A stretch of 64,000 nucleotides of DNA from the NCBI RefSeq assembly GCF_000189635.1, contig NW_002476512.1, positions 806,001 through 870,000 of the forward strand, written 5' to 3'. The notes beneath the pieces were generated by a model that saw only the letters and a list, made by a program, of their open reading frames with translations, was not told the DNA's origin and searched no databases. The position numbers were made by a program, and so were the translations under genes. Numbering within the stretch: position 1 is the first letter of the stretch; every line of letters starts with the position of its first letter. Below, one piece after another: positions 6,901 through 39,074 of the stretch. The stretch is from Tetrahymena thermophila SB210 (lineage: Eukaryota > Ciliophora > Oligohymenophorea > Hymenostomatida > Tetrahymenidae).

Positions 6901-7812
6901 AAAATATTGTTAAAAGATTACAAAATTTAAAAATAATCAGCTCATTAAAAAAATGTGCTTGCTTGAATTTTGAAGTAAACAATTGCTTAAAATCTGTAAA
7001 AAAAAAATTCTTTTATAATTTTCAAAATATTATTTCATCGTTTTAGTTCGTGCCTACTATTTGAATTTAATTTCGCAATACATCATTTACAATTTTTTTA
7101 ATAAAATTATCTATAATTTGTAGTAAATTATTCATTATTAAACGTTAATAGAAGAATGAAATATAGATGAATAATTATTAAAGTATAAATTTATAAAAAT
7201 GCTAAAAAATTCAAATAATTTAGCAAAGAGTATATTTATTTTATTTGTCTTATTTTATAACAAAACCAGCTGAAACATCTCTAAATTGTTTAATAATTTT
7301 TAGATATTTTAAAAATTGGACATAAAAGAGAAAGGAGAGTAAAAATCATAGACTATATTATTATTATAAAATTTTATTATTAATGAAAATTATAGATTGA
7401 TAAAGACTTATAAAATCTGATATTTTTAGATGAAAGTTCATTGATCAGAACAGCTTTACTTCTTAAAATTTGTAAATATGTTATTTGCTTTTACTTTTAA
7501 TTATTTTTTCTTCTATTTTTTTTAATTTTCCTATGTAAAAACTATTTTATGTAATTAAAGCGATTTAATACCTCTCTAAGCCATCAAATTTATCGAAGTA
7601 TCGTATTTTAATCAATCTATTTATTTTAATCCGTGCTTACAATCATCTTTAAATTTAAATGCTTTTTTACAATTTTAAAATTAAATGTAAATCCTATTTT
7701 CCTAAAAAAGTTTACAAAAACTCTCAAAATAATACATTCATGATTAAATAGAATATTTTTCACAAGCTTTCACTATTTAATTTGAAATTTTGATGAAATA
7801 AATAATACATGC

Positions 7813-7843
<31 letters not shown>

Positions 7844-9518
7844 CATACATACATACATACATACATACATACATACATACATACATACATACATACTAAT
7901 ATGAATTGATTTAATATAATTGCTTCAATTTTTCAAAACTTCTTCAATATTAAACTTCAAAATTTATGATATTAATGAATCTAATTTTGTTTATACAAAT
8001 TTTTTAAGAGTTTTTGTAATAAAAAACTCCACCTTTTCTTAGTTTATAGCAATTTAGAATTGATTAGTCCTTTCTTAGAAAAGTAAGAAAAATTCTACCT
8101 TAATTAATAAAATTACCATACAAACAAACATAGAAAAATAATTCAAAAAGGGCTATAAAGAATTTATAAATTTTGAATAAATTACATTGATGTACTTTAA
8201 ATTTTTTGCAATTTTTATGTTATTAAAATATAAAATTTTCTCTTAAAATTTTGGATTTGTAATTTATTCAGCTCATTTAAAAATCAATAACTTTTTTGTC
8301 AAGATTTGCATTTATTTTTTTATTTAAAACAAATATCCGTCTTTAAATATTTCACTAAAATAAAAGGAATTTTGTTTTTTCAATTGTTTAAGTTGATTTT
8401 TCTTCAGATATTTCATTTAAATTTTAAATTTTGCAAGTTAAATATGAATTAATTGTGTTTAGTAAATTATTTAAAATAAATAAAATCCTTATTTATTTTT
8501 TTATTTAATAACTGATTTCATTTTGAAATATTCTTCTAAGGGTCTTATTAAACCTAAAACAAACTTTGCATTTTTACCTCTTTTTAATAAATGATTTATG
8601 AAGATAATAATAAATAATAAATTTATTTTATTAACAATAAGAATTGCTTCAATTTAATAAATCAAAAAGATTTAATTAATTAAATTAGATTATGAAGTTA
8701 ATTGGTTAAAAAAGAATAAATATGTCATATAAATTTTATCAATATAATTTTGAAGAATTTAATTAAATCCTTGAAAATTAATTAATTTTACTTTTTTGTT
8801 TTCTTTTTAAAAAAAAATCAATTTTGATAACAGGATAAAGCTTGAATCAGTTATTGATTTATTAATATTTAAATCTTTATATCATCAATTTTTCTTCTTA
8901 AATTAACAAATAAATTGTATTTTTAATTTCGTAAATATTATTAAATAATTTTTTGATAAAGCATGAAAATTAATTCATAATAATTTATTTCATTTTACTT
9001 AATTATCAATAAGCTTTTATTCAATAAAATAATTTTCTAAATTTAATTAAAAATTAATTTGCATATTTCGATAAAAATTCTAATTATTTTTTACACGAAA
9101 AAAATGATAGATTGATCAGAGTCTAACAGAATTAATATTACAAAAAGACATCAGAATTGATAAAATCTGACTATCGATGGTCTATTATATATTAAACCTG
9201 ATTTAGTTAAAAAGATAAGTCAAGGATCAATCATAGAAATATAATTAAATTAGATTAACAAAGTGCAAACAAAAATCTTTACCATATCTGAAATTCTAAT
9301 TTCTTAGAAATATCTATTTAAAAATATACAGAATATAGCAGATTTTGTAAGGATATTTACTAAAAAGGTATATTTATTCATCATGATTAAATTTATAGTT
9401 ATGCGATTAGCTTTCTATGAGTCAAATTATGTTTATACTTTTCGTTCTTTTTACATTACTTACTTTGCTTACAAAGCAACTCATTATTTTCTTGTAATAT
9501 TAGATTTTCAACTTGAAT
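3999..9518. other. AT-rich noncoding stretch with microsatellites
   Basis: A 5.5-kb spacer with no gene I can support. It holds several simple repeats (CTAT-type at about 4412-4461, AATA-type near 4255-4280, GACA-type near 6611-6630 and the long TACA array at 7814-7896). A 64-codon open frame at 6165-6359 is no longer than chance predicts when TGA is the only stop. The last ~100 bases before 9519 presumably carry the promoter of the ubiquitin-like gene, but I see no defined element. Confidence 0.6.
7814..7896. repeat. (TACA)n microsatellite
   Basis: About 21 perfect copies of a TACA tetranucleotide in a row, the longest uninterrupted simple repeat in the window. It lies in a noncoding spacer. 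Perfect tracts of this length are expected to vary in copy number between strains. Confidence 0.95.
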
Positions 9519-18366: not shown

Positions 18367-19323
18367 ATGATAGATAACAGATCTCTAATTTAAAACTAAT
18401 AAAGTGGTGATTTGCAGTTAAATGAATTAGGCGAAGTTGCTATCCAACAGAGTGCGTACACTAGATTGGATCTCATGATTTAAAAGGCAAAGAAAGAAGC
18501 TTATATAATTAATTTGATTTTAGGTTTTATTTGTATATCTAAGATTACTGCTACTACTATTTGCTTTTAAACAAATGATACTTCATTCTCACCACTTTTG
18601 CTTTGGGTTTATCTAATGCTAATTTATGACATAACTTATTTACTCCATTTGGTAGGTGCTACTATTGCTGTCGCACGCTGCTCAGAAGAAGATTTACTCT
18701 ATGGAGATCCTGATTAAGAAGAGATTTCTGATACAAATTTACAGTCATTTATATTTTAGCAGTTCCTTCTGTCCTGCAGACCAATAAATGGGTTAAAATT
18801 ATAGGAAAATGCTGAAAAGAAATTTATAAATAACCTTAGATACGGAGAATTTTGTAGGCTCTTTTACATGATTTTATTTATTTATGGCAATGTAATTTTT
18901 TGTGCTGATGCAATTTGCAGCCCCGATAGAGATGAAATATATTACTATTTAACAGTGGTTTACTTAATATTTGGTTATATTTATTTATCTATTCCTCTTT
19001 TACTATGCCTTTTCTGGCCTTTTATTGCTATTTATACTTATTGCTCAGATATATGGTCTGAAGTATCACAAAGACCTCCTGTAAGATAAGATAATCTGAA
19101 TAAATTAACAATTTAATGTTATAAAGAAATTGAGCAACCTGTAGAAAAAGATTGCACAATCTGTTTCATGTAGTACGAACCTGATGATAAACTTGTAGTT
19201 ATGCCATGTAACAAGCTGCATTATTTTCATGAGGAATGTGTAAAGAAATGGCTTGAACGCAATGGAAATTGCCCAATGTGTCGTGTATATGTAGACAATG
19301 CTTTTGAGATTGAAAATCCATGA
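18367..19323 (+). CDS. Four-pass membrane RING-H2 E3 ligase-like protein
   Basis: Single exon, 318 aa, ATG 18367 and TGA 19321-19323. Hydrophobic segments lie at about residues 46-66, 76-103, 162-183 and 193-226. A cytosolic tail carries a RING-H2 finger: C263, C266, C281, H285, H288, C291, C302, C305, with WL after C291 and CPMC at the end, the C3H2C3 pattern that binds two zinc ions and recruits ubiquitin-charged E2. The arrangement fits a membrane-embedded ubiquitin ligase in the endomembrane system; substrate and exact membrane are unknown. The RING is the firm part and the TM count is read by eye. The next gene starts 1.3 kb downstream on the same strand. Confidence 0.85.
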
Positions 19324-25416: not shown

Positions 25417-26530
25417 TTATTAATTTTAAGATAATAAATAAAAACTCAATATTTTTTTTAAATTCTTTAGAATATATTAAAAAATATTAATTAAATTAAC
25501 AAAGAGACTTAGAAAATTTCAGAATCTTTCTTTGCTTTAGTTTTTCAAAACAAAATTTAGATTATAAATTTTTTTTTTGGGTGAATTTTAAAATCATAGT
25601 TAAATCATTAAAATATTTTTAATTTTTTAGTTATTCACTTTGAAAAATGTTATAAAACATAGTTTTTTATTTTAGATATATTTTGATAATATTAAATTAA
25701 TAAATAAATAACGTAAGTTTATAAAGTTAGAAAAAAAAACCAGTATATTTTTATTTTCTTCCAAAAAATATTGAAATTAATAAGATTTTAATCCAAAATT
25801 AAAACATTTCACTTTGATAGTAAAATCTTATTGCTATTATTTATAGAACATAATTATATGTCAAAGTTATCATTTTAATCAAAAATAAATAACAAGAAAA
25901 TTTCAATTATTGAATAATTATTTAATGAATAGAAAATAAATAGTTAGAATAGCAATACATATTTTTTTATAAATTAAAAGATAATTTTTATGAAATTAAA
26001 AAAGCTTTGAATAAAATATCTAACTAACTAACCTTCAAAACAAACAAACAAAAAAGTTAAAATGTTTAATTAAAATTTAATTTTTTGAAACATTTTTATA
26101 TCAAAATTAAAATCTTTTATTAATTTTTTTTCTCAAATAAATCTTTGATTAAAAACTTTCATTTTTTTCATCAGTGAGGTTAGAGACATTTATTTTATTT
26201 CTTTAAAGTTTTCTTTTAACTTATAAAAAATATATGTTTCCAACACACGAAATAATTATTCAAGCTAGAATATATTTCTGTAAATCAATTAAATTTTTGA
26301 TTACTATCATGCTTTTTTTTGTTTTTTTAAAAGATAAATTAACTTTGAGAATCAAAATCAATTATTTTTGTGGCTTCAATTATTGATTTTATTTATGATT
26401 GATTATGCTATTTTTAAATTTACATTAAATTGAATAATAAACTCAAAAAATTGAGAAGAAAATTAAAATAGGTAAATTAATATAGGAGAGAAAATTAAAA
26501 CTTAAGTAAAATAGCTATTAAATAATAGCA
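25417..26530. other. Spacer between divergent genes
   Basis: The small minus-strand gene and the EGF/TM/RING gene diverge from this 1.1-kb AT-rich region. Both promoters should lie here, but no element can be read. No coding potential is seen. Confidence 0.7.
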
Positions 26531-28715
26531 ATGAAATTTAGCACAATTTATTTAGTGCACAGTCTAATTATTTTATCCTTCCAGATTGTAAACTGTGATT
26601 CAGAACCACAGAATCTTTACCTAGACACAACTTATTAGATAACCTAAAACCAGACAGCAGAGAATTTTCAAATAAATATTTTCTCTGTTGATCCAAGATT
26701 CAATTATTTGATCATTCAGATAGATGTTATTTCTCCCATGTATCCTGTTTATAAGTTCGTTGCTTGCCTTAACTTCAATCAAAATAACTTAGATTAGCAA
26801 TCTTAATAATATACAGAACTTAATGCTTGCTAATTTATCGATACTTTGGCTACTCAATAATAGTTAAGTTAACATCTTTTAATAATATAAACCAATTATT
26901 CAGATTATTCTACTAGAACTCCTACATTTTTAACAATCCTATACACTTAAAAATTTAATGATAATACTGTACAAAACCTTTAATCACTTCATCAAATTTA
27001 ATACAATGTTAAAATTTATTAAGATTATCTTTACCCATGCCATAAAAATTGCAATCAACAAGGATATTGCGATAACTAATTAGGAAAGTGCACTTGTGAA
27101 TCATAATTTTATGGGATCGACTGCAGTGTATAATTGAACGCATTAAATATAAGTGAAACTTAAAACATAACTATCTCCTCGATGGAGTAGAGATACTTTA
27201 TTTTATAATTTGAAGATGCTTTAACAAAATCAAATGGTAAAAGTACTTAAATTTGTTTATAAAATTTAAATGGTACGGCAATAATATATTTTTAAGTAAT
27301 TTTTAACAAATTAGAATTACCTTCTATTTTTAATAATAATATCTCACAAAAAATACAAACAAATGAAATTATAACTATTTTGAGTTTAGAACAAAAGTGT
27401 AATGAATACTAAACATATAAAAGCTTTTCAAATAACTATTAATTAAAAAGTTGCTTTGCAGTGATAAGTATTTAATAATCAATATCAGATGAACCTACAA
27501 TGCTTTCCATTTCAGCCCAATATTCGCAATAAACAATAAGTTAGCAAAATTCTTCAGAATAATCTAAACAAGATAAAGACATTTCATAAATAAAAATAAT
27601 AATAATAATAATAATAGTAGTAGTAACTTTGTCAGTTTTTCTTCTTTGTATTTTTATTTTCGTGTTAGTTAAAATGAGGAAAAGAAGAGCTTCAACTTAA
27701 AATAGACTTAATCAAAATTTATAAAGGCCAAATAATGAATACTTTTAAATAAAAGTTGATGTGACAAAGGCAAAAATACTTTTTTTACAAGAAGCCTTTA
27801 TGCCAATTGTTTAATATGATTCCTTCAAAAAATAAAATGAAATCAACATAATTTAAATAAGATAAGACAACCAGATGATAAAGAAAGAATAAAACTAAAA
27901 TGAATAAAACTTTACAGAAAATATGTTTATAATTAAAGATAGAATAGAAGGCGATTAACAACAGAATATAGGTAAGGATCGTTAAAATTAAGATAAAAAC
28001 TCAAAAGACCAAAATACAAAGGAAGATATTTAGGTTGATAAGGATAACACAAATAACTGTTCTATTTGCTTGGTTGAGATTGTTACTTAAGATGAGCTTA
28101 GGTTAACTATTTGCAGGCATTTGTTTCATTCTAATTGCTTGATTTCGTGGATTAGCTAAAATGATAGTTGTCCTCTTTGCAGATAAAGTTTTGCTATAAT
28201 TGATATAATAGATTATTTAATCACCCAAAAAATCAATTAAAACGCAACAAAAGAATAGGTAGCTGATATTTAAAGCCAAAAAGATAAAATATTAGAGGTA
28301 TTATCAAATGAAAAAAATAAATAATTAACCATATCTGATTTTGAGCTATTAAATATATTCAAATATTTTTTACCATTTGAAACACTCTAAAAATATCAAC
28401 TGATCTAGAAGTAATCAAATCAATAATGCAACAATGAAGCAGAAAATAAATATTAAGAATAAATTTCCGTATTTGAATAATTTAAAAATAGGAAGAAATG
28501 TTCTATTTATTTTGGTAAAAAATTTATAATCTAAAATTTATTTTTAAAAATAATATTTTTATTTATTAATCTCAAAAGATAATACTACATTCGATTAATC
28601 TCCAACTAGTATGTTAATGAGTAACCATTTGAGTTAATAATTTAGAAATAACTTTCAAACAGCTAATTAAACAGAAAGCCTTATTTAAGAAAGAAGAGTA
28701 AGCATCTTTCATTGA
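26531..28715 (+). CDS. Secretory EGF-like / TM / RING-H2 protein
   Basis: Two exons, 26531-28514 and 28579-28715 (64-nt intron, phase 1), 706 aa. Residues 1-22 are a signal peptide ending at a Cys. The luminal part carries one EGF-like module with six cysteines (C170, C174, C180, C187, C189, C198). A single TM helix spans about 354-382 and starts with a run of Ile encoded by an ATA microsatellite. The cytosolic part is basic and Gln/Asn-rich, then a RING-H2 finger: C510, C513, C528, H530, H533, C536, C547, C550 (ending CPLC). The layout (luminal domain, one TM, cytosolic RING-H2) is that of GRAIL-like transmembrane ubiquitin ligases of endosomes and plasma membrane; the EGF module in place of a PA domain is notable. 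Substrate unknown. It is convergent with the LRR gene. Confidence 0.88.
27594..27622 (+). repeat. ATA/GTA triplet run inside a TM-helix coding region
   Basis: A run of ATA triplets followed by three GTA triplets, in frame inside the EGF/TM/RING gene. It encodes the Ile-Val start of the single membrane helix (from residue ~354). Confidence 0.85.
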
Positions 28716-29726
28716 TTAAGATTGCGAAGACAATTAAATTAAATAGAAGTCTTCTATTTAAATAAATAAATTAGAAAATTAAATAAATATTATAAACTAA
28801 ATATTATTTTTATAATTATAATATAAAATACTTGAGATTATTAACATCAAAATAATTGCTAATTAATAGGATTTTTAACTAATAGTTAGTTCAGAGGTAT
28901 GCATCTATCTTTGAATTAAACATAAATTTTTATCTGAATAAGAGAAACAAATGCATGCACTTAGTATTGACTAAACTTATAAGGATAATAAAATTAGATA
29001 AACATCAAAAGTTATTAATTAAATTAATTTTTAATTAATCAATTAAGATTAAATTTATTTTTTTTATTTTAAAACCTTATTTTTTCTTAAGTTTGTTATA
29101 TTTATGTTTGCTTTAAACTTTGCTTAAAAAGAGATAATTTAGTTTTTTAATTGATTTTTCAATATTTCTAATATCTTTTTTACTATTTATCCAAATTACC
29201 TACCCCATTTTTATTTATTTTTTTTGTCAAAATTTTAAATAGTTTTTTTAAATTTAAAAATATTTTAAAAGTAAAATTTGATTTCTCTATTAGGTTTTAT
29301 TTAAGTCTTGGTATCTAATTAATCATGGTAAATAAAAAAAAGGATAGAAATATGATTGATCGACAATATTTAAGATTAAAATATATTTAACTGGCATGTA
29401 AAAGTTTGGCATTTATATAATTTCATAAGATATAATTTAACACTAAAAATTTTTAATTATTTGATCCTTTTTAGAGAAAAAGGAGAGTTGGTTTAAGAGG
29501 AATTAATTTATTTAAGTAAATTTAATTTTTTTATTTTTTATTTTTACAAACAATTTATTTACTTACAAAAATAAATATGAATGATATTTATAATAAAAAA
29601 CAAGAATAAAATCTAATATATAGAAGGTTAAAAAAACTTTTTCAAAATATTAAAAATAAAAAAACCTTTAATATTCAATTATTTAAACATTTAATATTTA
29701 TTCTTCCTTTTTTCGCCATTTGCTTA
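28716..29726. other. Spacer between convergent RING and LRR genes
   Basis: Both genes end here tail to tail. The sequence is very AT-rich with no further exon that I can support. Confidence 0.7.
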
Positions 29727-32700
29727 TCAACAGAATTATTTTTGAAAGACAACTAATCTTTTTGATTTAAGACACTTGCTTATTACTTTGAAATTTTATG
29801 ATTAACACATGTAGCTAAAATTTTATAATAAATTTGTGTAAATTTTAAATAAATATCTAATAGAATAAACTTTCAAATTAAAAATTATTTCTTAAATTAA
29901 TATATAAATAAATAAAATAATATTAGTCAAATAAAATAGATAAAAAATAAATCAAATAAATTCAAAGAAATTTTTTATTTTAAATTAGTTTTTATAATTC
30001 AAAATATCACAATCCAAAACAAATAAACTATTTTTACTCAAGCTGAAGTATCAAATTTGAGAGATTAATGCAATTTGCTAAACCAGAACCTAAGCATGAT
30101 GCACCTTCATAACCAATTTTATTGCCACTTTTTAAATATTATAGAAAAAATATATCATTAAATAGTTAAATAGAAGGAAAAAATGAAGAAAGAATATGAA
30201 ATAATAAAATTAATTAATTGATAATAAAAGAAAAAGTTAAAAATAAAATAATGAGTTAAATTAAAAAAGAAAGAACAAAAAAAAAGCAAGCACAATAAAA
30301 AGTAAAAAAAAGAGAGCTTTGTTGTTTTAAATTTGTTTTTATAACTCAAAATATCACAATCTAAAATAAATAAACTGTTTTTACTTAAGCTTAAGTGTCA
30401 AATTTGAGAGATTAATGCAATTTGTTAAACCAGAAGATAAGCCTGATGTACCTTCATCACCAATTTGATTGCACCTTTTTAAATATTGAAGTAAAAATAT
30501 ATCATTAAATAGTTAATTTGAGGGAAAAAATGAAGAAAGAATATGAAATAATAAGATCAATAATTAATTGATAATAAAAGCAAAAGTTGAAAAGAAAATG
30601 AGAGTTAAATTAACAAAGAAAGAATAAAAAAAAAAAAAAAAGCAAGCACAATAAAAATGAAAAGAAAAGACAGCTTTATTGTTTTAAATTAGTTTTTATA
30701 ATTCAAAATATCGCAATCCAAAACAAATAAACTGTTTTTACCTAAGGTCAAGTGACAAATTTGAGAGATTAATGCAATTTGCTAAACCAGAAGATAAGCC
30801 TGATGCACCCTTTGCACCAATTTAATTTTCACTTTTTAAATATTGAAGAAAAAATATATTATTAAATAGTTAATTAGAAGAAAAAAATGAAGAAAGAATA
30901 TGAAATAATAAGATAATTAATTTATAATAAAAAGAAAAGTTAAAAATAGAATGATGAGTTAAATTAACAAAGAAAGAACAAAAAAAAAAAGCAAGCACAA
31001 TAAAAAGGAAAAGAAAAGAGATCTTTATTGTTTTAAATTTGTTTTTATAATTCAAAATATCACAATCCAAAACAAATAAACTGTTTTTACATAAGGTCAA
31101 GTGACAAATTTGAGAGATTAATGCAATTTGATAAACCAGAACCTAAGCCTGATGGACCTTCATCACTAATTTTATTACCACTTTTTAAATATTGAAGAAA
31201 AAATATTTAATTAAATAGTTAATTAGAAGGAAAAAATGAAGAAAGAATATGAAATAATAAAATTAATTAGTTGAAAATAAAAGTAAAAGTTAAATATAAA
31301 ATGATGAGAGTTAAATTAACAAAGAAAGAACAAAAAAAAAAAGTAAAATAATAAAAAAGAAAAGAGAGCTTTATTGTTTTAAATTAGTTTTTATATTTAA
31401 AAATATCACAATTCAAAACAAATAAACTGTTTTTACCGAAGATTAAGTGTCAAATTTGAGAGATTAATGCAATTTGCTAAACCAGAACCTAAGCCTGATG
31501 CACCAATTGCACAAATTTAATTGTTCCTTTTTAAATATTGAATAAAAAATATATCATTAAATAGGAAAAAATGAACAAAGAATATGAAATAAGAAAATTA
31601 ATTAATTGATAATAAAATCAAAAGTTAAAAATAGAATGATGAGTTAAATTAAAAAGAAAGAAAGAACAAAAAAAAAAAAGCAAAAAAAGCACAATAAAAA
31701 AGAAAAGAAATGAGAGTTTTATTGTTTTAAATTAGTTTTTATAATTCAAAATATCACAATCCAAAATAAATAAACTGTTTTTACATAAGGTGAAGTGACA
31801 AATTTGAGAGATTAATGCAATTTGCTAAACCAGAACCTAAGCCTGATGCACCTTCATCACCAATTTTATTGCCACTTTTTAAATATTGTAGAAAAAATAT
31901 ATCATTAAATAGTTAATTAGTAGGAAAGAATAAAAAAAAAATATGAAATAACAAAATTAATTAATTGAAAATAAAAGCAAAAGTTAAAAATAAAATGATG
32001 ATTTAAATTAATAAAAAAAGATCAAAAAAAAGCAAGCACAATAAAAAGGAAAAGAAAAGAGATCTTTATTGTTTTAAATTAATTTTTATAATTCAAAATA
32101 TCACAATCAAAAACAAATAAACTGTTTTTACTTAAGGTAAAGTGACAAATTTGAGAGATTAATGCAATTTGCTAAACCTGAACCTAAGCCTGATACCCCT
32201 TCATCACCAATTTAATTTTAACTTTTTAAATATTGAAGAAAAAACATATCATTAAATAGTAAATTAGAAGGAAAAAATGAAGATAGAATATGAAATAATA
32301 AGATTAATTAATTGATAATAAAAGCAAAAGTTGAAAAGAAAATGAGAGTTAAATTAACAAAGAAAGAAAAAAAACAAAAACAAGCACAATAAAAAGGAAA
32401 AGAAAAGAGATCTTTATTGTTTTAAATTTGTTTTTATAATTCAAAATATCACAATCCAAAACAAATAAACTATTTTTACTCAAGGTAAAGTAACATATTT
32501 TAGAGATTAATGCAATTTGCTAAACCAGAACCTAAGATTGATGCACCCATTTCACCTATTAAATTGGTACTTTTTAAATATTGAAGAAATAATATATCAT
32601 TAAATATTTAATTAGAAAGAAAATAATAAAGAAAAAATATGAAATAATAAAATTAATTAATTGATAATAAAAGCAAAAGTTAAAAATAGAATGATGAGTT

Positions 32701-35700
32701 AAATTAACAAAGAAAGAACAAAAAAAAAAAAGCAAGCACAATAATAAGGAAAAGAAAAAGAGCTTTATTGTTATAAATTAGTTTTTATAATTCAAAATAT
32801 CACAATCTAAAACAAATAAATTGGTTTTACCGAAGGTCAAGTGACAAATTTGAGCAATTAATGTAATTTGCTAAACCAGAACTTAAGCTTGATGCACCTT
32901 CATCACCAATTTTATTTTTCCTTTTTAAATATTGAAGAAATAATATATCATTAAATAGTTAATTAGAAGGAAAAAATGAAGAAAGAATATGAAATAATAA
33001 AATTAATTAATTGATTACAAAAGCAAAAGTTAAAAATAAAATGATGAGTTAAATTAAAAAAGAAAGAACAAAAAAAAAAAGCAAGCACAGTAAAAAGGAA
33101 AAGAAAATAGAGCTTTATTGTTTTAATTTAGTTTTTATAACTCAAAATATCACAATCCAAAACAAATAAACTGTTTTTACAAAAGGCTAAGTGTCAAATT
33201 TGAGAGATTAATGCAATTTGCTAAACCAAAACCTAAGCCTGATACCCCTTTATCACCAATTTAATTTTAACTTTTTAAATATTGAAGAAAAAATATATCA
33301 TTAAATAGTTAATTAGAAGGAAAAAATGAAGATAGAATATGAAATAATAAAATTAATTAATTGATTATAAAAGCAAAAGTTAAAAATAAAATGATGATTT
33401 AAATTAACAAAGAAATAACAAAAAAAAAGCAAGCACAATAAAAAGGAAAAGAAAAGAGATCTTTATTGTTTTAAATTAATTTTTATAATTCAAAATATCA
33501 CAATCAAAAACAAATAAACTGTTTTTACTTAAGGTAAAGTGACAAATTTGAGAGATTAATGCAATTTGCTAAACCTGAACCTAAGCCTGATACCCCTTCA
33601 TCACCAATTTAATTTTAACTTTTTAAATATTGAACAAAAAATATATCATCAAATAGTAAATTAGAAGCAAAAAATGAAGAAACAATTTGAAATAATAAGA
33701 TATATTAATTGATAATAAAAGCAAAAGTTAAAAATAAAATGATGTATTAAATTAACAAAGAAAGAACAAACAAAAAAAAAAGCTTTATTATTTAAAATTA
33801 GTTTTGATAATTCAAAATATCACAATCCAAAACAAATAAACTGTTTTTACCCAAGATCAAGTGACAAATTTGAGAGATTAATTTAATTTGCTAAACCAGA
33901 ACCTAAGCCTGATGCACCCTTTGCATCAATTTTATTATAACTTTTTAAATATTGAAGAAAAAATATATCATTAAATAGTTAAGTAGAAGGAAAAAATGAA
34001 GAAAGAATATGCAATAATAGGATTAATTAATTAATAATAAAAGTAAAAGTTGAAAATAAAATGATGAGTTAAATTAATAAAGAAAGAAAAAAAAAAACAA
34101 AAAAAGCACAATAAAAAGGAAAAGAAAATAGAGCTTTATTGTTTTAAATTAGTTTTTATAATTCAAAATATCACAATCCAAAACAAATAAACTGTTTTTA
34201 CATAGAAAAATCAAAAATAATATATTTAAAGACCTAATAAATACAAAAAGAACAAACAATAATACATATAAATATAATAAATAAATAAATAATTTTTAAT
34301 TTAAGTTGTATTCTGAGTGCATTTATATGTGCGAGTATTTCTATTCTATTCTATCACCAATATTATTATCACTTTTAAAATATTGAAGAAAAAATATATC
34401 ATTAAATAGTTAATTAGAAGGAAAAAATGAAGAAAGAATATCAAATAATAAAATTAATTAATTGAAAATAAAAATAAAATGATAAGAGTTAAATTAACAA
34501 AGAAAGAACAAACAAAAAAAGCAAGCACAATAAAAATAAAAAGAAAAGAGAGCTTTATTGTTTTAAATTTGTTTTTATAATTCAAAATATCACAATCCAA
34601 AACAAATAAACTGTTTTTACCTAATGTTAAGTGTTAAATTTTAGAGATTAACACAATTTGCTAAACCAGAAGATAAGCCTTATGCACCCTTTGCACAAAT
34701 TTAATTGTTCCTTTTTAAATATTGAAGAAAACATATATCATTAAATAGTTAATTAGAAGTAAAAATATGAAGAAAGAATAAGAAATAATAAGATCAATTA
34801 AATCATAATAAAAGCAAAAGTTAAAAATAGAATGATGAGTTAAATTAACAAAGAAAGAAGAAAAAAAAAAAGCAAGCACAATAAAAATAAAAAGAAAAGA
34901 GAGCTTTATTGTTTTAAATTAATTTTTATAATTCAAAATATCACAATCCAAAACAAATAAACTGTCTTTACTAAAGGATAAGTGTCAAATTTGAGAGATT
35001 AATGCAATATGCTAAACCAGAACCTAAGCATGATGCACCTTCATCACCAATTTTATTGTAGCTTTTTAAATATTGAAGAAAATATATATTATTAAATAGT
35101 TAATTAGAAGAAAAAAATGAAGAAAGAATATGAAATAATAAGATCAATTAATTGATAATAAAAGCAAAAGTTAAAAATAAAATGATGATTTAAATTAACA
35201 AAGAACAAAAAAAAAAGCAAGCACAATAAAAAGGAAAAGAAAAAGAGCTTTATTATTTTAAATTAGTTTTTATAATTCAAAATATCACAATCCAAAACAA
35301 ATAAACTGTTTTTACTAAAGGCTAATTGTCAAATTTGAGAGATTAGCGCAATTTGCTAAACCAGAACCTAAACCTAATACACCCTTTGCACAAATTTAAT
35401 TGTTCCTTTTTAAAAATTGAAGAAATAATATATCATTAAATAGTTAATTAGAAGGAAAAAAATGAAGAAACAATATGAAATAATAAGATTAATTAATTGA
35501 TAATAAAAGCAAATGTTAAAAATAAAATGATGATTTAAATTAAAAAAGAAAGAACAAAAAAAAAAGCAAGCACAATAAAAAGGAAAAGAAAAAGAGCTTT
35601 ATTGTTTTAAATTAGTTTTTATAATTCAAAATATCACAATCCAAAACAAATAAACTGTTTTTACCCAAGGTCAAGTGACAAATTTGAGAGATTAATGTAT

Positions 35701-37159
35701 TTTGCTAAACCAGAACATAAGCCTTATGTACCTTCATCACCAATTTCATTATACCTTTTTAAATATTGAAGTAAAAATATATCATTAAATAGTTAAGTAG
35801 AAGGAAAAAATGAAGAAAGAATATGCAATAATAAGATTAATTAATTGATAATAAAAGTAAAAGTTGAAAATAAAATGATGAGTTAATAAATTAACAAAAA
35901 AGAACAAAAAGAAATCAAGCACAATAAAAAGAAAAATAAAAGAGAGCTTTATTGTTTTAAATTAGTTTTTATAATTCAAAGTATCATAATCCAAAACAAA
36001 TAAACTGTTTTTACGAAACGTTAAGTGTCAAATTTGAGAGATTAATGCAATTTGCTAAACCAGAACCTAAACCTAATGCACCTTCATCATCAATTTTGTT
36101 GCCACTTTTTAAATATTATAGAAAAAATATATCATTAAATAGTTAAATAGAAGGAAAAAATGAAGAAAGAATATGAAATAATAAGATTAATTAATTGATA
36201 ATAAAAGTAAAAGTTAAAAATAAAATGATGAGTTAAATTAACAAAGAAAGAATAAAAAAAAAAAAGCAAGAACAATAAAAAGGAAAAGAAAAGAGAGCTT
36301 TATTGTTTTAAATTAGTTTTTATAATTCAAAATATCATAATCCAAAACAAATAAACTGTTTTTACCGAAGGTTAAGTGTCAAATTTTAGAGATTAACACA
36401 ATTTGCTAAACCAGAACCTAAACCTGATACACCCTTTGCACAAATTTAATTATTCCTTTTTAAATATCGAAGAAAAAATATATCATTAAATAGTTAATTA
36501 GAAGGAAAAAATGAAGAAAGAATATGAAATAATAAAATTAATTAAATGATTATAAAAGCAAAAGTTAAAAATAAAATGATGAGCTAAATTAACAAAGAAA
36601 GAACAAAAAAAAAAAAGAAAGCACAATAAAAAGAAAAAGAAAAAAGAGCTATATTGTGTTAAATTAGTTTTTATAATTCAAAATATCATAATCCAAAACT
36701 AATAAATTATTTTTACTCAAGGTAAAGTGACAAATTTGAGAGATTAATGCAATTTGCTAAACCAGAACCTAAACCTGATGCACCCTTTTTACCAATTTTA
36801 TTGCCACTTTTTAAATATTGAAGAAGTAATATTTCATTAAATAGTTAATTCAAAGGAAAAAATGAAGAAAGAATATGAAATAATAAGATTAATTAATTGA
36901 TAATAAAAGTAAAAGTTGAAAATAAAATGATGAGTTAAATTAATAAAGAAAGAACAAAAAAAAAGCAAAAAAAGCACAATAAAAAGGAAAAGAAAAGAGA
37001 GCTTTATTGTTTTAAATTAGTTTTTATAATTCAAAATATCACATTCAAAAACAAATAAACTGTCTTTACTCAAGCTGAAGTGTCAAATTTGAGAGATTAA
37101 TGCAATTTGCTAAACCAAAACCTAAGCCTGATATACCTTCATCACCAATTTAATTACCA
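29727..37159 (-). CDS. Leucine-rich-repeat protein of tandem 90-bp exons (5' end not found)
   Basis: Twenty intact LRR exons of exactly 90 bp, joined by phase-2 introns. In transcription order they start (upper coordinate) at 37159, 36806, 36455, 36104, 35754, 35405, 35061, 34710, [disrupted 34371], 33940, 33618, 33270, 32920, 32569, 32221, 31874, 31526, 31180, 30831, 30474 and 30127. The terminal exon 29727-29814 encodes a basic end (KCLKSKRLVVFQKQFC) and TGA. Each LRR exon encodes 30 residues of ribonuclease-inhibitor type, e.g. GNKIGDEGASGLGSGL then ANCINLSNLTLNL; none contains an in-frame TGA. Introns run GTAAAAACAG...TTTAAAAAG. Tandem 90-bp phase-2 LRR exons are a known young gene class in Tetrahymena. 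Such domains usually bind proteins on their concave face; the partner is unknown. I could not locate the start codon with confidence, so the 5' end is partial. Confidence 0.82.
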
Positions 37160-37352
37160 CTTTTTAAATATTGAAGAAAAAAAATATCATTAAATAGTTA
37201 ATTAGAAGGAAAAAATTAAGAAAGAATATGAAATAATAAAAATAAAATTAAAAATAAAAATAAAAATAAAATGATGAGTTAAATTAACAAAGAAAGAACA
37301 AACAAAAAAAGCAAGCACTATAAAAATAAAAAGAAAAGATAGCTTTATTATT
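30020..37352. repeat. Tandem array of ~350-bp LRR exon + intron units
   Basis: Twenty-one direct units. Exon-to-exon spacing (lower coordinates) is 344-357 bp for nearly all, with one 322-bp unit (33529 to 33851) and one 419-bp unit (34202 to 34621). Each unit holds a 90-bp exon and a ~258-bp intron. The introns are very similar along their whole length, including a poly-A tract beside an AAGCAAGCACAATAAAAA-like phrase and the phrase AATTCAAAATATCACAATCC. High intron similarity points to recent expansion or ongoing homogenisation. The array ends abruptly at about 37352, part way through a unit. Confidence 0.93.
34202..34371 (-). pseudogene. Disrupted LRR exon in the array
   Basis: Both splice-site contexts of a normal unit are present (intron 5' motif on the lower side, AAAG on the upper side), but the space between them is 170 nt instead of 90. 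Only the first ~18 nt of LRR coding (DNNIGD) remain, then ~150 nt unlike the other units, including a CTATT pentanucleotide run and an AATA tract. As 170 is not a multiple of three, using it as an exon would shift the frame. Skipping it would keep the frame, because the neighbours are all 90-nt phase-2 exons. Confidence 0.75.
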
Positions 37353-39074
37353 TTAAATTATTGAGGTATTTTTAATGTTGGAAATTTTGATTTTTGAGTT
37401 CGTAAATTTTTTCAAAAATAAATATGATATAAGAATATACGGTGAATAATATTTCAAATTTTGCATTTTGTGAATGCTTTCTAAAAACTCAAAAATAAAT
37501 CTGTTTTAAGCTAGTTTAGCTTTATTTATTATGTTATTAAGATATATTACATTTCACCTTTTATAAATTAAATAGGCATTTCACTCAAGTTAAATAGAAG
37601 GAAAAAAAGAAGAAAAAATAATAAATAATTAAAAATTGAAATGAAAATTAAGTTAAAATACTAAAAAATGTTTGTTTTAATAAAAATCTATAAATAATGA
37701 TGATAATTTTTATAATAAAAGTTATAATTAATTGAAAGTTAAATTTATAAAAAATATTAATAATAATAAAAATAATATTTTTTAATTAAATATACTTCAG
37801 ATAAATATGGAGAACCTAATGAGATGATAGTGAAGAGCTTAAAAACTTTTTTGTTAATTTATATAAATTTAAAGGATATTAATAAAAAAATTAATAATTA
37901 CTTTTTTTAATTGCCTGTAATATTAAATCTATTATATCATTTATTTTTTTTCAAAAATATAGAATAAAAATATATGAAATTTAATTAATTAATTATTAAT
38001 GGATAAAAAGAACAAATAAATATATTAATTATCAAATATTAATTTATATTTTTGGTTTTATGAAGATATAGATATCATAGAAAATTTAATTTAACATTCA
38101 TTATTTAAACTTAATATTTGTATGTAAAACATATACTTACAAAAATAATAGGAATTAGAGATAGCCAGTTATTTATTCGTATTTCATAATGTTTATAAGT
38201 AGATTATTCTGTTTTAGCTCTGTAATTTTACGAATTTTTATAATACCTCAAATTATAGCAAGGTGCCATACAAAAATTTTATGGTTTTCATGCCGCTTAT
38301 TAATAGATTTTTTATTTATTTATAAAAAAATTTGTTTTTATATTTTATAATAAAATTGTTATCAATAATTTAATTTATTATAATATCAAAAATAAATAAT
38401 TTTTTTATGTCAAAGTTTTTAAATTTAGCTAAATTTGTGAATTTAGTTATTTTTATGAATTATTTTTTTTATTATATTACAAAACTAGAGTGATCTAATC
38501 ATAGTATATAAATATATATCTCCTCCAATATTTGCTTAATTATTCTAAATTAAACAATCTTCCTTTTTAGAATAAATTTATGAGTTTTGTGGTCTGACTT
38601 TCTTGCAGATAAAGTAGCATTAGCAAAGAATATAAACATAATTCTTCAATTTTATTAATAAATGATTTTCCTAATAGATACCACCACTTATTTATAATAT
38701 CTATTTATTAATCTAATCAAAGTATATATAGATCCTCCTTATCCTTTAGCTTCTATATTATATTTAAGAGAAAATATTATAAATTTAAATTTCATCTGAT
38801 TTATTGATAATAATAATGAATAATGCTTTTTAATTTAACATCATTACTGATTCTATTTAATGTAATTTGAGATTGAATATATCTCTATATTATATAATTG
38901 TTTATTCTTTTATTAAAGAACTTTAAAGACTACAAAATAAGTGCTAAGACTAACTAACTAACCATCAGCTAGTTTTTTAAGCTGAAGATAATATTTTAAT
39001 ATGGCAATTTAATCAATTATAATATTATATTTAAATTAATAGTCATAAATAATTTTAAATTAAAGTTTTTTAAC
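37353..39074. other. Region upstream of the LRR array, no clear exon
   Basis: Here the 5' exons of the LRR gene should begin, but I find none with confidence. On the minus strand, 38560-38700 is open and moderately coding-like (WYLLGKSFINKIEELCLYSL), preceded by an AATAAG acceptor-like site, but I could not join it in frame to the array. The rest is AT-rich. Confidence 0.45.

Follow-up and report, generated by a model that had tools for sequence, protein, structure and literature searches.

Within a 64,000-nucleotide stretch of the Tetrahymena thermophila SB210 genome (contig NW_002476512.1, positions 806,001 to 870,000; hereafter the window), we identified a leucine-rich repeat (LRR) gene on the minus strand. 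We consider it highly probable, judging from its sequence, that this is a gene of the Tetrahymena group III LRR class, encoding about 20 thirty-residue LRRs (one per 90-bp exon) and a short basic C-terminal exon, with diversified predicted contact residues and with one exon scarred by the retrotransposon REP. Two parts of this reading seem to us worth following: the single exon site that the element appears to target, and the high divergence at the predicted contact residues.

Tandem Repeats Finder (TRF) reported a single array in the window, spanning positions 29971-37360 with a period of 351 and 21.0 copies, and splice-site matching assigned the gene to the minus strand. Each unit pairs a 90-bp exon with an intron of about 259 bp. 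In 20 of the 21 units, exactly 90 bp separate the acceptor (ending in TTTAAAAAG) from the donor (beginning with GTAAAA). The 20 introns all run from GT to AG in phase 2 and measure 232-267 bp, with a median of 259. When the 20 exons are joined and translated with the ciliate code, phase 2 is free of TGA, the stop codon that occurs 36 and 11 times in the remaining frames. In gene order, the intact exons are exon 1 (37070-37159, adjoining the 5' flank), exon 2 (36717-36806), exon 3 (36366-36455), exon 4 (36015-36104), exon 5 (35665-35754), exon 6 (35316-35405), exon 7 (34972-35061), exon 8 (34621-34710), exon 10 (33851-33940), exon 11 (33529-33618), exon 12 (33181-33270), exon 13 (32831-32920), exon 14 (32480-32569), exon 15 (32132-32221), exon 16 (31785-31874), exon 17 (31437-31526), exon 18 (31091-31180), exon 19 (30742-30831), exon 20 (30385-30474), and exon 21 (30038-30127), the last of the array. 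A predicted 3'-terminal exon (29727-29814, also on the minus strand) ends in TGA and carries the motif KSKRLVVF. The whole predicted protein matches Pfam LRR_6 with E=1.4e-37, with no single stretch passing by itself, and a search with the spliced protein matched 15 PDB sequences, ciliary LRR proteins included.

Group III LRR genes were described by Xiong et al. (2019; PMC6564038) as arrays of 90-bp exons separated by phase-2 introns, the length of which in T. thermophila is about 257 bp. Exons of this class were also found scattered between genes, as repeats genome-wide, and the genes were associated with the germline retrotransposon REP. The mechanism proposed there was unequal crossing over, possibly with retrotransposition, and ratios of nonsynonymous to synonymous substitution (Ka/Ks) below 1 were reported. 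The class is recognized by at least three consecutive exons of exactly 90 bp, a pattern held here by 20 of the 21 units; the median intron of 259 bp in 20 phase-2 introns sits beside the published value of about 257 bp, and the exons code for LRRs. A single unit of the array matches the 101-Mb assembly at 341 places or more, which would fit the group III trait of being masked by a species CRS repeat. By its sequence, the locus is one more member of a large, published family, and the gene class is not new. The earlier note on this DNA had counted 20 exons, each precisely 90 bp long, beside a single disrupted copy, with phase-2 introns throughout and a unit of about 350 bp, and had assigned the gene to the tandem 90-bp phase-2 class; splice-site matching, the open frame, TRF, and the published account agree with it on each point, with the class and its mechanism already in print. 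The strand of the gene and the nature of the disrupted copy, an element tail at exon nucleotide 17, were absent from that note and are added here. Our account shares with the published one the arrays of exactly 90-bp exons, the phase-2 introns (about 257 bp there), the genome-wide repeats, and the scattered exons. Relative to that account, we add the use of introns as a within-gene yardstick, the diversification of predicted contact residues, and the observation that the split codon encodes the most variable residue. The words positive selection, hypervariable, concave, and diversifying do not occur in the main text of that paper.

The disrupted unit lies at positions 34202-34371. Exon 9 keeps its acceptor and its first 17 nucleotides (34355-34371), and the remainder of the exon is missing. 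After nucleotide 17 stands the retained 3' tail of a putative REP-like non-LTR (non-long terminal repeat) retrotransposon (34202-34354, plus strand, antisense to the gene), with TTCTA repeats at its end. The insert at 34203-34342 is a dispersed repeat: among the best 40 of 136 candidates, all 40 matched, four of them (the insert itself included) at 99-100% over its full length. We refer to contigs by number, C60 being the array locus described here and C243 the contig of a paralogue that shares both of its flanks. Alignment to C36 revealed the same tail within another LRR exon, and the stretch conserved among copies is, as judged by eye, about 54-56 bp. In the stretches that we fetched, nine of nine tails join the exon at one point, within about 2 nt, always in the order tail, TTCTA-type repeats, and CACCAAT, which corresponds to exon nucleotide 17 from the other strand.

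Genome-wide, we found 94 exact tail cores, compared with none for a reversed-pattern control. ACCAAT follows within 29 nt of the core in 63 of these, against none in the control and one or two expected from the frequency of ACCAAT. A looser pattern, CAYHWATTT, captured 11 more cores (control 0), and BLAST across the junction another four, for a total of 78 of 94 cores with a junction after LRR exon nucleotide 17; 36 of the 94 align onward into LRR exon and intron. The BLAST step scored the 40 best of 1131 candidates by rank over the entire query and is thus biased towards junctions, whereas the pattern counts are not so limited. All three copies with both ends show CACCAATTTA(A) duplicated on both sides, a target-site duplication of 10-11 bp (12-13 bp counting the shared AT) in what is a small sample, and beyond the tail, on its other side, three copies have an unbroken exon that reaches the site and crosses it. 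We also observed that three tail copies start with CATAGAAAAA (34201-34210, C36:45242-45251, and C220:273433-273442) and differ in their exon-side flanks, as if one internal boundary of an eliminated segment were fixed.

Several features of this tail recall REP. According to PMC6564038, which cites Fillingham et al. (2004) for the non-LTR retrotransposon Tt.REP, a 3' tail of about 54 bp is kept in the somatic genome, and open reading frame (ORF) 1 and the reverse transcriptase/endonuclease ORF2 are excised from it. The same study counted 169 somatic copies of the conserved 54-bp tail, correlated them with group III LRR genes, and placed the remnants in LRR introns. The tail described here appears alike, as judged by eye, in its conserved stretch of about 54-56 bp in the somatic genome, and it is alike in its association with LRR units, but it sits at a fixed nucleotide of the 90-bp exon and is accompanied by a duplication of at least 10 bp. 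The disrupted exon, on this comparison, most likely carries the tail of the germline retrotransposon REP. Given the acceptor and 17 exon bases on one side and the intact exon on the other in three copies, what looks like one intron would consist of a dead exon and the introns that flank it. The assembly yielded one RVT_1 match, on C134, a contig without an exact tail core, which fits the removal of element bodies from the somatic genome. Literature listings (titles and the starts of abstracts) made no mention of an exon target for REP, and an earlier report is possible.

Insertion at one target nucleotide and a target-site duplication of constant length are properties of R1/R2-like elements. 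Here the former was found in the 78 cores (36 by alignment and 42 by motif) and the latter in the three copies with both ends, few as these are. Drosophila R2 inserts into rDNA, where breaks made by its endonuclease start the recovery of copy number (PMC10266012). R2 and the element here would both be site-specific non-LTR elements in a multicopy tandem target, the difference being that R2 targets rDNA and the element here would target protein-coding exons across many loci. We propose that the element, if it is REP, integrates in the germline nucleus through target-primed reverse transcription, using a single site in the exon. The element body and most of the struck exon might then be deleted as an internal eliminated sequence, leaving the tail and an exon stump in the somatic nucleus. 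Because the exons are phase-symmetric, the dead exon 9 could be skipped in frame.

The second main feature of the locus is the uneven divergence of its exons. We used Nei-Gojobori counts with the ciliate code to estimate nonsynonymous (dN) and synonymous (dS) divergence, took the intron divergence of 0.077 as K, and bootstrapped over units. Residues 26, 28, 30, 1, and 3 have a dN of 0.81, or 10.5 times intron K (bootstrap 8.5-13.0), and residues 5, 6, 7, and 9 reach 5.7 times K. The remaining 21 codons have a dS/K of 1.10 (0.56-1.74) and a dN/K of 1.06, and over all 30 codons dN/dS is 1.53 (1.21-2.08). The five most diverged residues are those that we take, from LRR structure, to face outward on the concave side. 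The pattern extends beyond this array: whole-exon dN/dS exceeds 1 in 12 of the 13 contigs tested (0.97-2.33), and the contact class without residue 30 has a dN/K of at least 5.4 in all 20 other arrays with four or more introns. Residues rank alike by diversity in C60 and C243 (rho 0.83), with only 0.03% and 0.02% of four-residue sets, respectively, reaching the diversity of residues 26, 28, 1, and 3. The most variable residue is number 30 (diversity 0.93 over 18 junctions here and 0.90 over 215), the codon of which is cut by the phase-2 intron, so that each junction builds this residue from two exons. The gene product may therefore be a binding protein, with selection diversifying its predicted contact residues. 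Some observations weigh against this reading. At the five predicted contact residues dS is also raised, to 4.1 times K, leaving a dN/dS of 2.6 there, and an increase in synonymous divergence is not what selection acting only on amino acids predicts. In the other arrays the scaffold dS/K lies anywhere between 0 and 2.1, making the intron a rough clock, and the contact class was taken from the alternating LRR pattern after the diversity table had been seen.

The common junction, the duplications, and the varied repeat numbers may be marks of repeated target-primed insertion at one site, with some copies perhaps descending from one event. Against repeated insertion stand the 16 of 94 tail cores without such a junction, the 42 of 78 junctions called from the motif alone, the origin of the nine fetched tails in stretches selected as LRR loci, and the single form shared by 19 of the 31 junctions examined, some of which may be copies of one insertion. 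A single dead unit, hit once by the element and then copied to many arrays, would turn the common junction into a matter of descent, and those 19 junctions, together with C60 and C36 tails that share 99% identity and a common internal starting base, are what favors it. We find such a history very unlikely: identity to C36 drops from 99% over the tail to 91% once the flanking exon and intron are added, the other 12 junctions vary in the number of TTCTA-type units (2-5) and in junction letters, and in three copies the exon persists as far as the site, with the duplication on the other side. It is similarly improbable that the array is a pseudogene or satellite, no longer a gene and evolving neutrally. 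In favor of that view, one exon is destroyed; no start codon for the gene was found in the 5' flank, where no reading frame is conserved; and dN/dS is 0.96 over the 21 codons that belong to neither variable class, by which average amino-acid constraint on the scaffold looks weak. The last two points count against our own reading as well. Indels argue the other way. Compared with their consensus, 18 introns hold 26 indels outside homopolymers in 4610 bases, but the 1800 bases of the 20 intact exons (the disrupted exon being excluded) hold none, with 10.2 expected at the intron rate (P ~4e-5). GT and AG are kept in all 20 introns, TGA stops are absent from the exons where 1.6 would be expected (weak on its own), specific residues diverge far above the intron rate, and the 3' exon motif recurs: of the 28 3' flanks that were aligned, 18 (this locus among them) have KSKRLVVF in translation.

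How the array reached its present size is a further matter. The fetched stretches gave a sample of 294 intact exons (by motif filter) and 212 introns of 215-285 bp; at this locus, 18 of the 20 introns were compared, with the two beside the disrupted exon left out. The earlier note had called the introns near identical, yet their mean identity within the C60 array is 92.6% (range 88.8-96.5%), compared with 94.3% within C243 and 93.2% between the two. Introns are nonetheless more conserved than exons in the C60 array, where exon identity is 82.7%. In terms of divergence, the C60 introns differ by 7.4% internally, 6.8% from C243, and 8.4% from all other loci compared. Units farther apart in the array are no more diverged (rho 0.02 for introns and -0.05 for exons), intron divergence is 7.1% between neighbours and 7.4% over all pairs, and the closest intron sits in another locus for 15 of 18 (one tied at three decimals). 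Exons 11 and 15 are identical at 90 of 90 positions and have flanking introns 5-8% apart, so exon and intron histories differ. No recent tandem duplication is visible in the C60 array, which is also the outcome of the intron-divergence dating suggested in the earlier note, and introns that are little closer to one another than to those of other loci, show no distance effect, and mostly have their nearest relatives elsewhere give no sign of recent intron-to-intron unequal crossing over. Over time, copy number does change in whole in-frame units, with C243 holding 18 units and this locus 21 between shared flanks. Similarity to C243 of about 90% runs past the gene (38440-38900 and C243:29191-29665), and the two may belong to a duplicated segment of greater extent. 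In many other loci, sequences resemble one another more than they resemble those elsewhere (in C377, for example, 4.0 vs 7.1%), so the family does undergo local duplication or homogenisation. The earlier note had envisaged a locus that gains and loses units as its introns, nearly identical to one another, cross over unequally. Of that picture, the whole-unit difference stands, and recent activity at this locus does not. A young array now gaining and losing whole repeats in this way would suit the whole-number copy count, the phase-symmetric exons, and the unit pairs at 0-1.2% intron divergence, mostly same-locus, that other loci hold. Set against the absence here of any intron pair above 96.5% identity, the missing distance effect, the nearest introns elsewhere, and the discordant exons 11 and 15, it strikes us as a rather unlikely account of the C60 array.

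Raised dS at the predicted contact codons also speaks for a rival idea, that those codons were diversified by a targeted process, either short templated exchange or local hypermutation, instead of by selection on ordinary mutations. In 40 unit pairs with intron divergence of at most 1.2%, the difference is 35% at variable-codon nucleotides and 1.6% at scaffold nucleotides, where the averages for the same locus are 43% and 6.8%; with six loci near contig ends set aside, the ten remaining pairs give 38% and 3.1%. C142 and C94 together have two substitutions in seven introns and 15 variable nucleotides across nine exons, the segments of which occur in each of the four possible combinations. Variable sites 4 nt apart are weakly associated (z 3.8 and 6.0), and no association was detected at 10-14 nt. 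Yet saturating selection removes association as well, and the nucleotide set was picked partly for variability. The most extreme arrays (C142, C94, and C162) lie at contig ends and may be affected by assembly, three of the ten remaining pairs belong to C377, itself no more than roughly 8 kb from a contig end, and two of the ten have no variable-site change. No mutator was found; an adenine-biased mutator like those of diversity-generating retroelements was considered, with no dedicated test. We regard a targeted process as unlikely, and the decoupling of exons from introns may reflect short exchange, strong selection, local mutation, or, in the contig-end cases, assembly error. The arrays at C142:159381-161123, C94:92-783, and C162:265-1625, where introns are almost identical and contact codons differ, are either very young or assembly effects.

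Putting the element and the diversification together, one might suppose by analogy with R2 that REP homes on one nucleotide, at the conserved N-x-I-G codons of the LRR, of a protein-coding exon present in thousands of copies. Breaks made there by its endonuclease, beside the variable block at nucleotides 18-22, would drive exchange that expands arrays, homogenises introns and scaffold, and reassorts contact codons, providing an R2-like engine for receptor diversity. This is a speculative and doubtful extension. In a search for a drop of association across the target site, nucleotide 8 showed no association with the block at 18-22 (z -1.7), but other short distances are weak too, so we do not read this result as a sign of a hotspot for breaks. 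The correlation in divergence among parts of the unit is low everywhere, which we did not use as proof of recombination because a star-like history gives low correlation too.

Upstream of the array lies a multi-copy 5' flank (37403-38436, minus strand) that is conserved beside other LRR arrays and apparently non-coding, with indels not in threes. It has 92 matches in the genome, most of those seen being about 74-91% identical and located at many LRR loci, and it is possible, from its sequence, that this module is a shared promoter or 5' leader. A start at MQNLKYYS (around 37.5 kb) or at an upstream ATG was rejected, as paralogues have indels not in threes there and several lack the frame. Elsewhere in the window, a 958-aa ORF in the ciliate code (26405-29281, plus strand) with RING and EGF-like domains ends near the 3' flank of the LRR gene, a second RING ORF lies at 18367-19323, and the tetranucleotide ATAC is repeated 23 times at 7805-7896.

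If the exact target holds, the statement that REP prefers LRR introns would become one that REP inserts at one base of the LRR exon. Such a target would explain exons lost from arrays, possibly annotated as long introns, and would offer a concrete break site for studying the growth of thousands of such genes. The design of the unit is also a built-in yardstick: with a variable exon beside an intron of the same copy, selection on the predicted binding residues may be measured within one gene.

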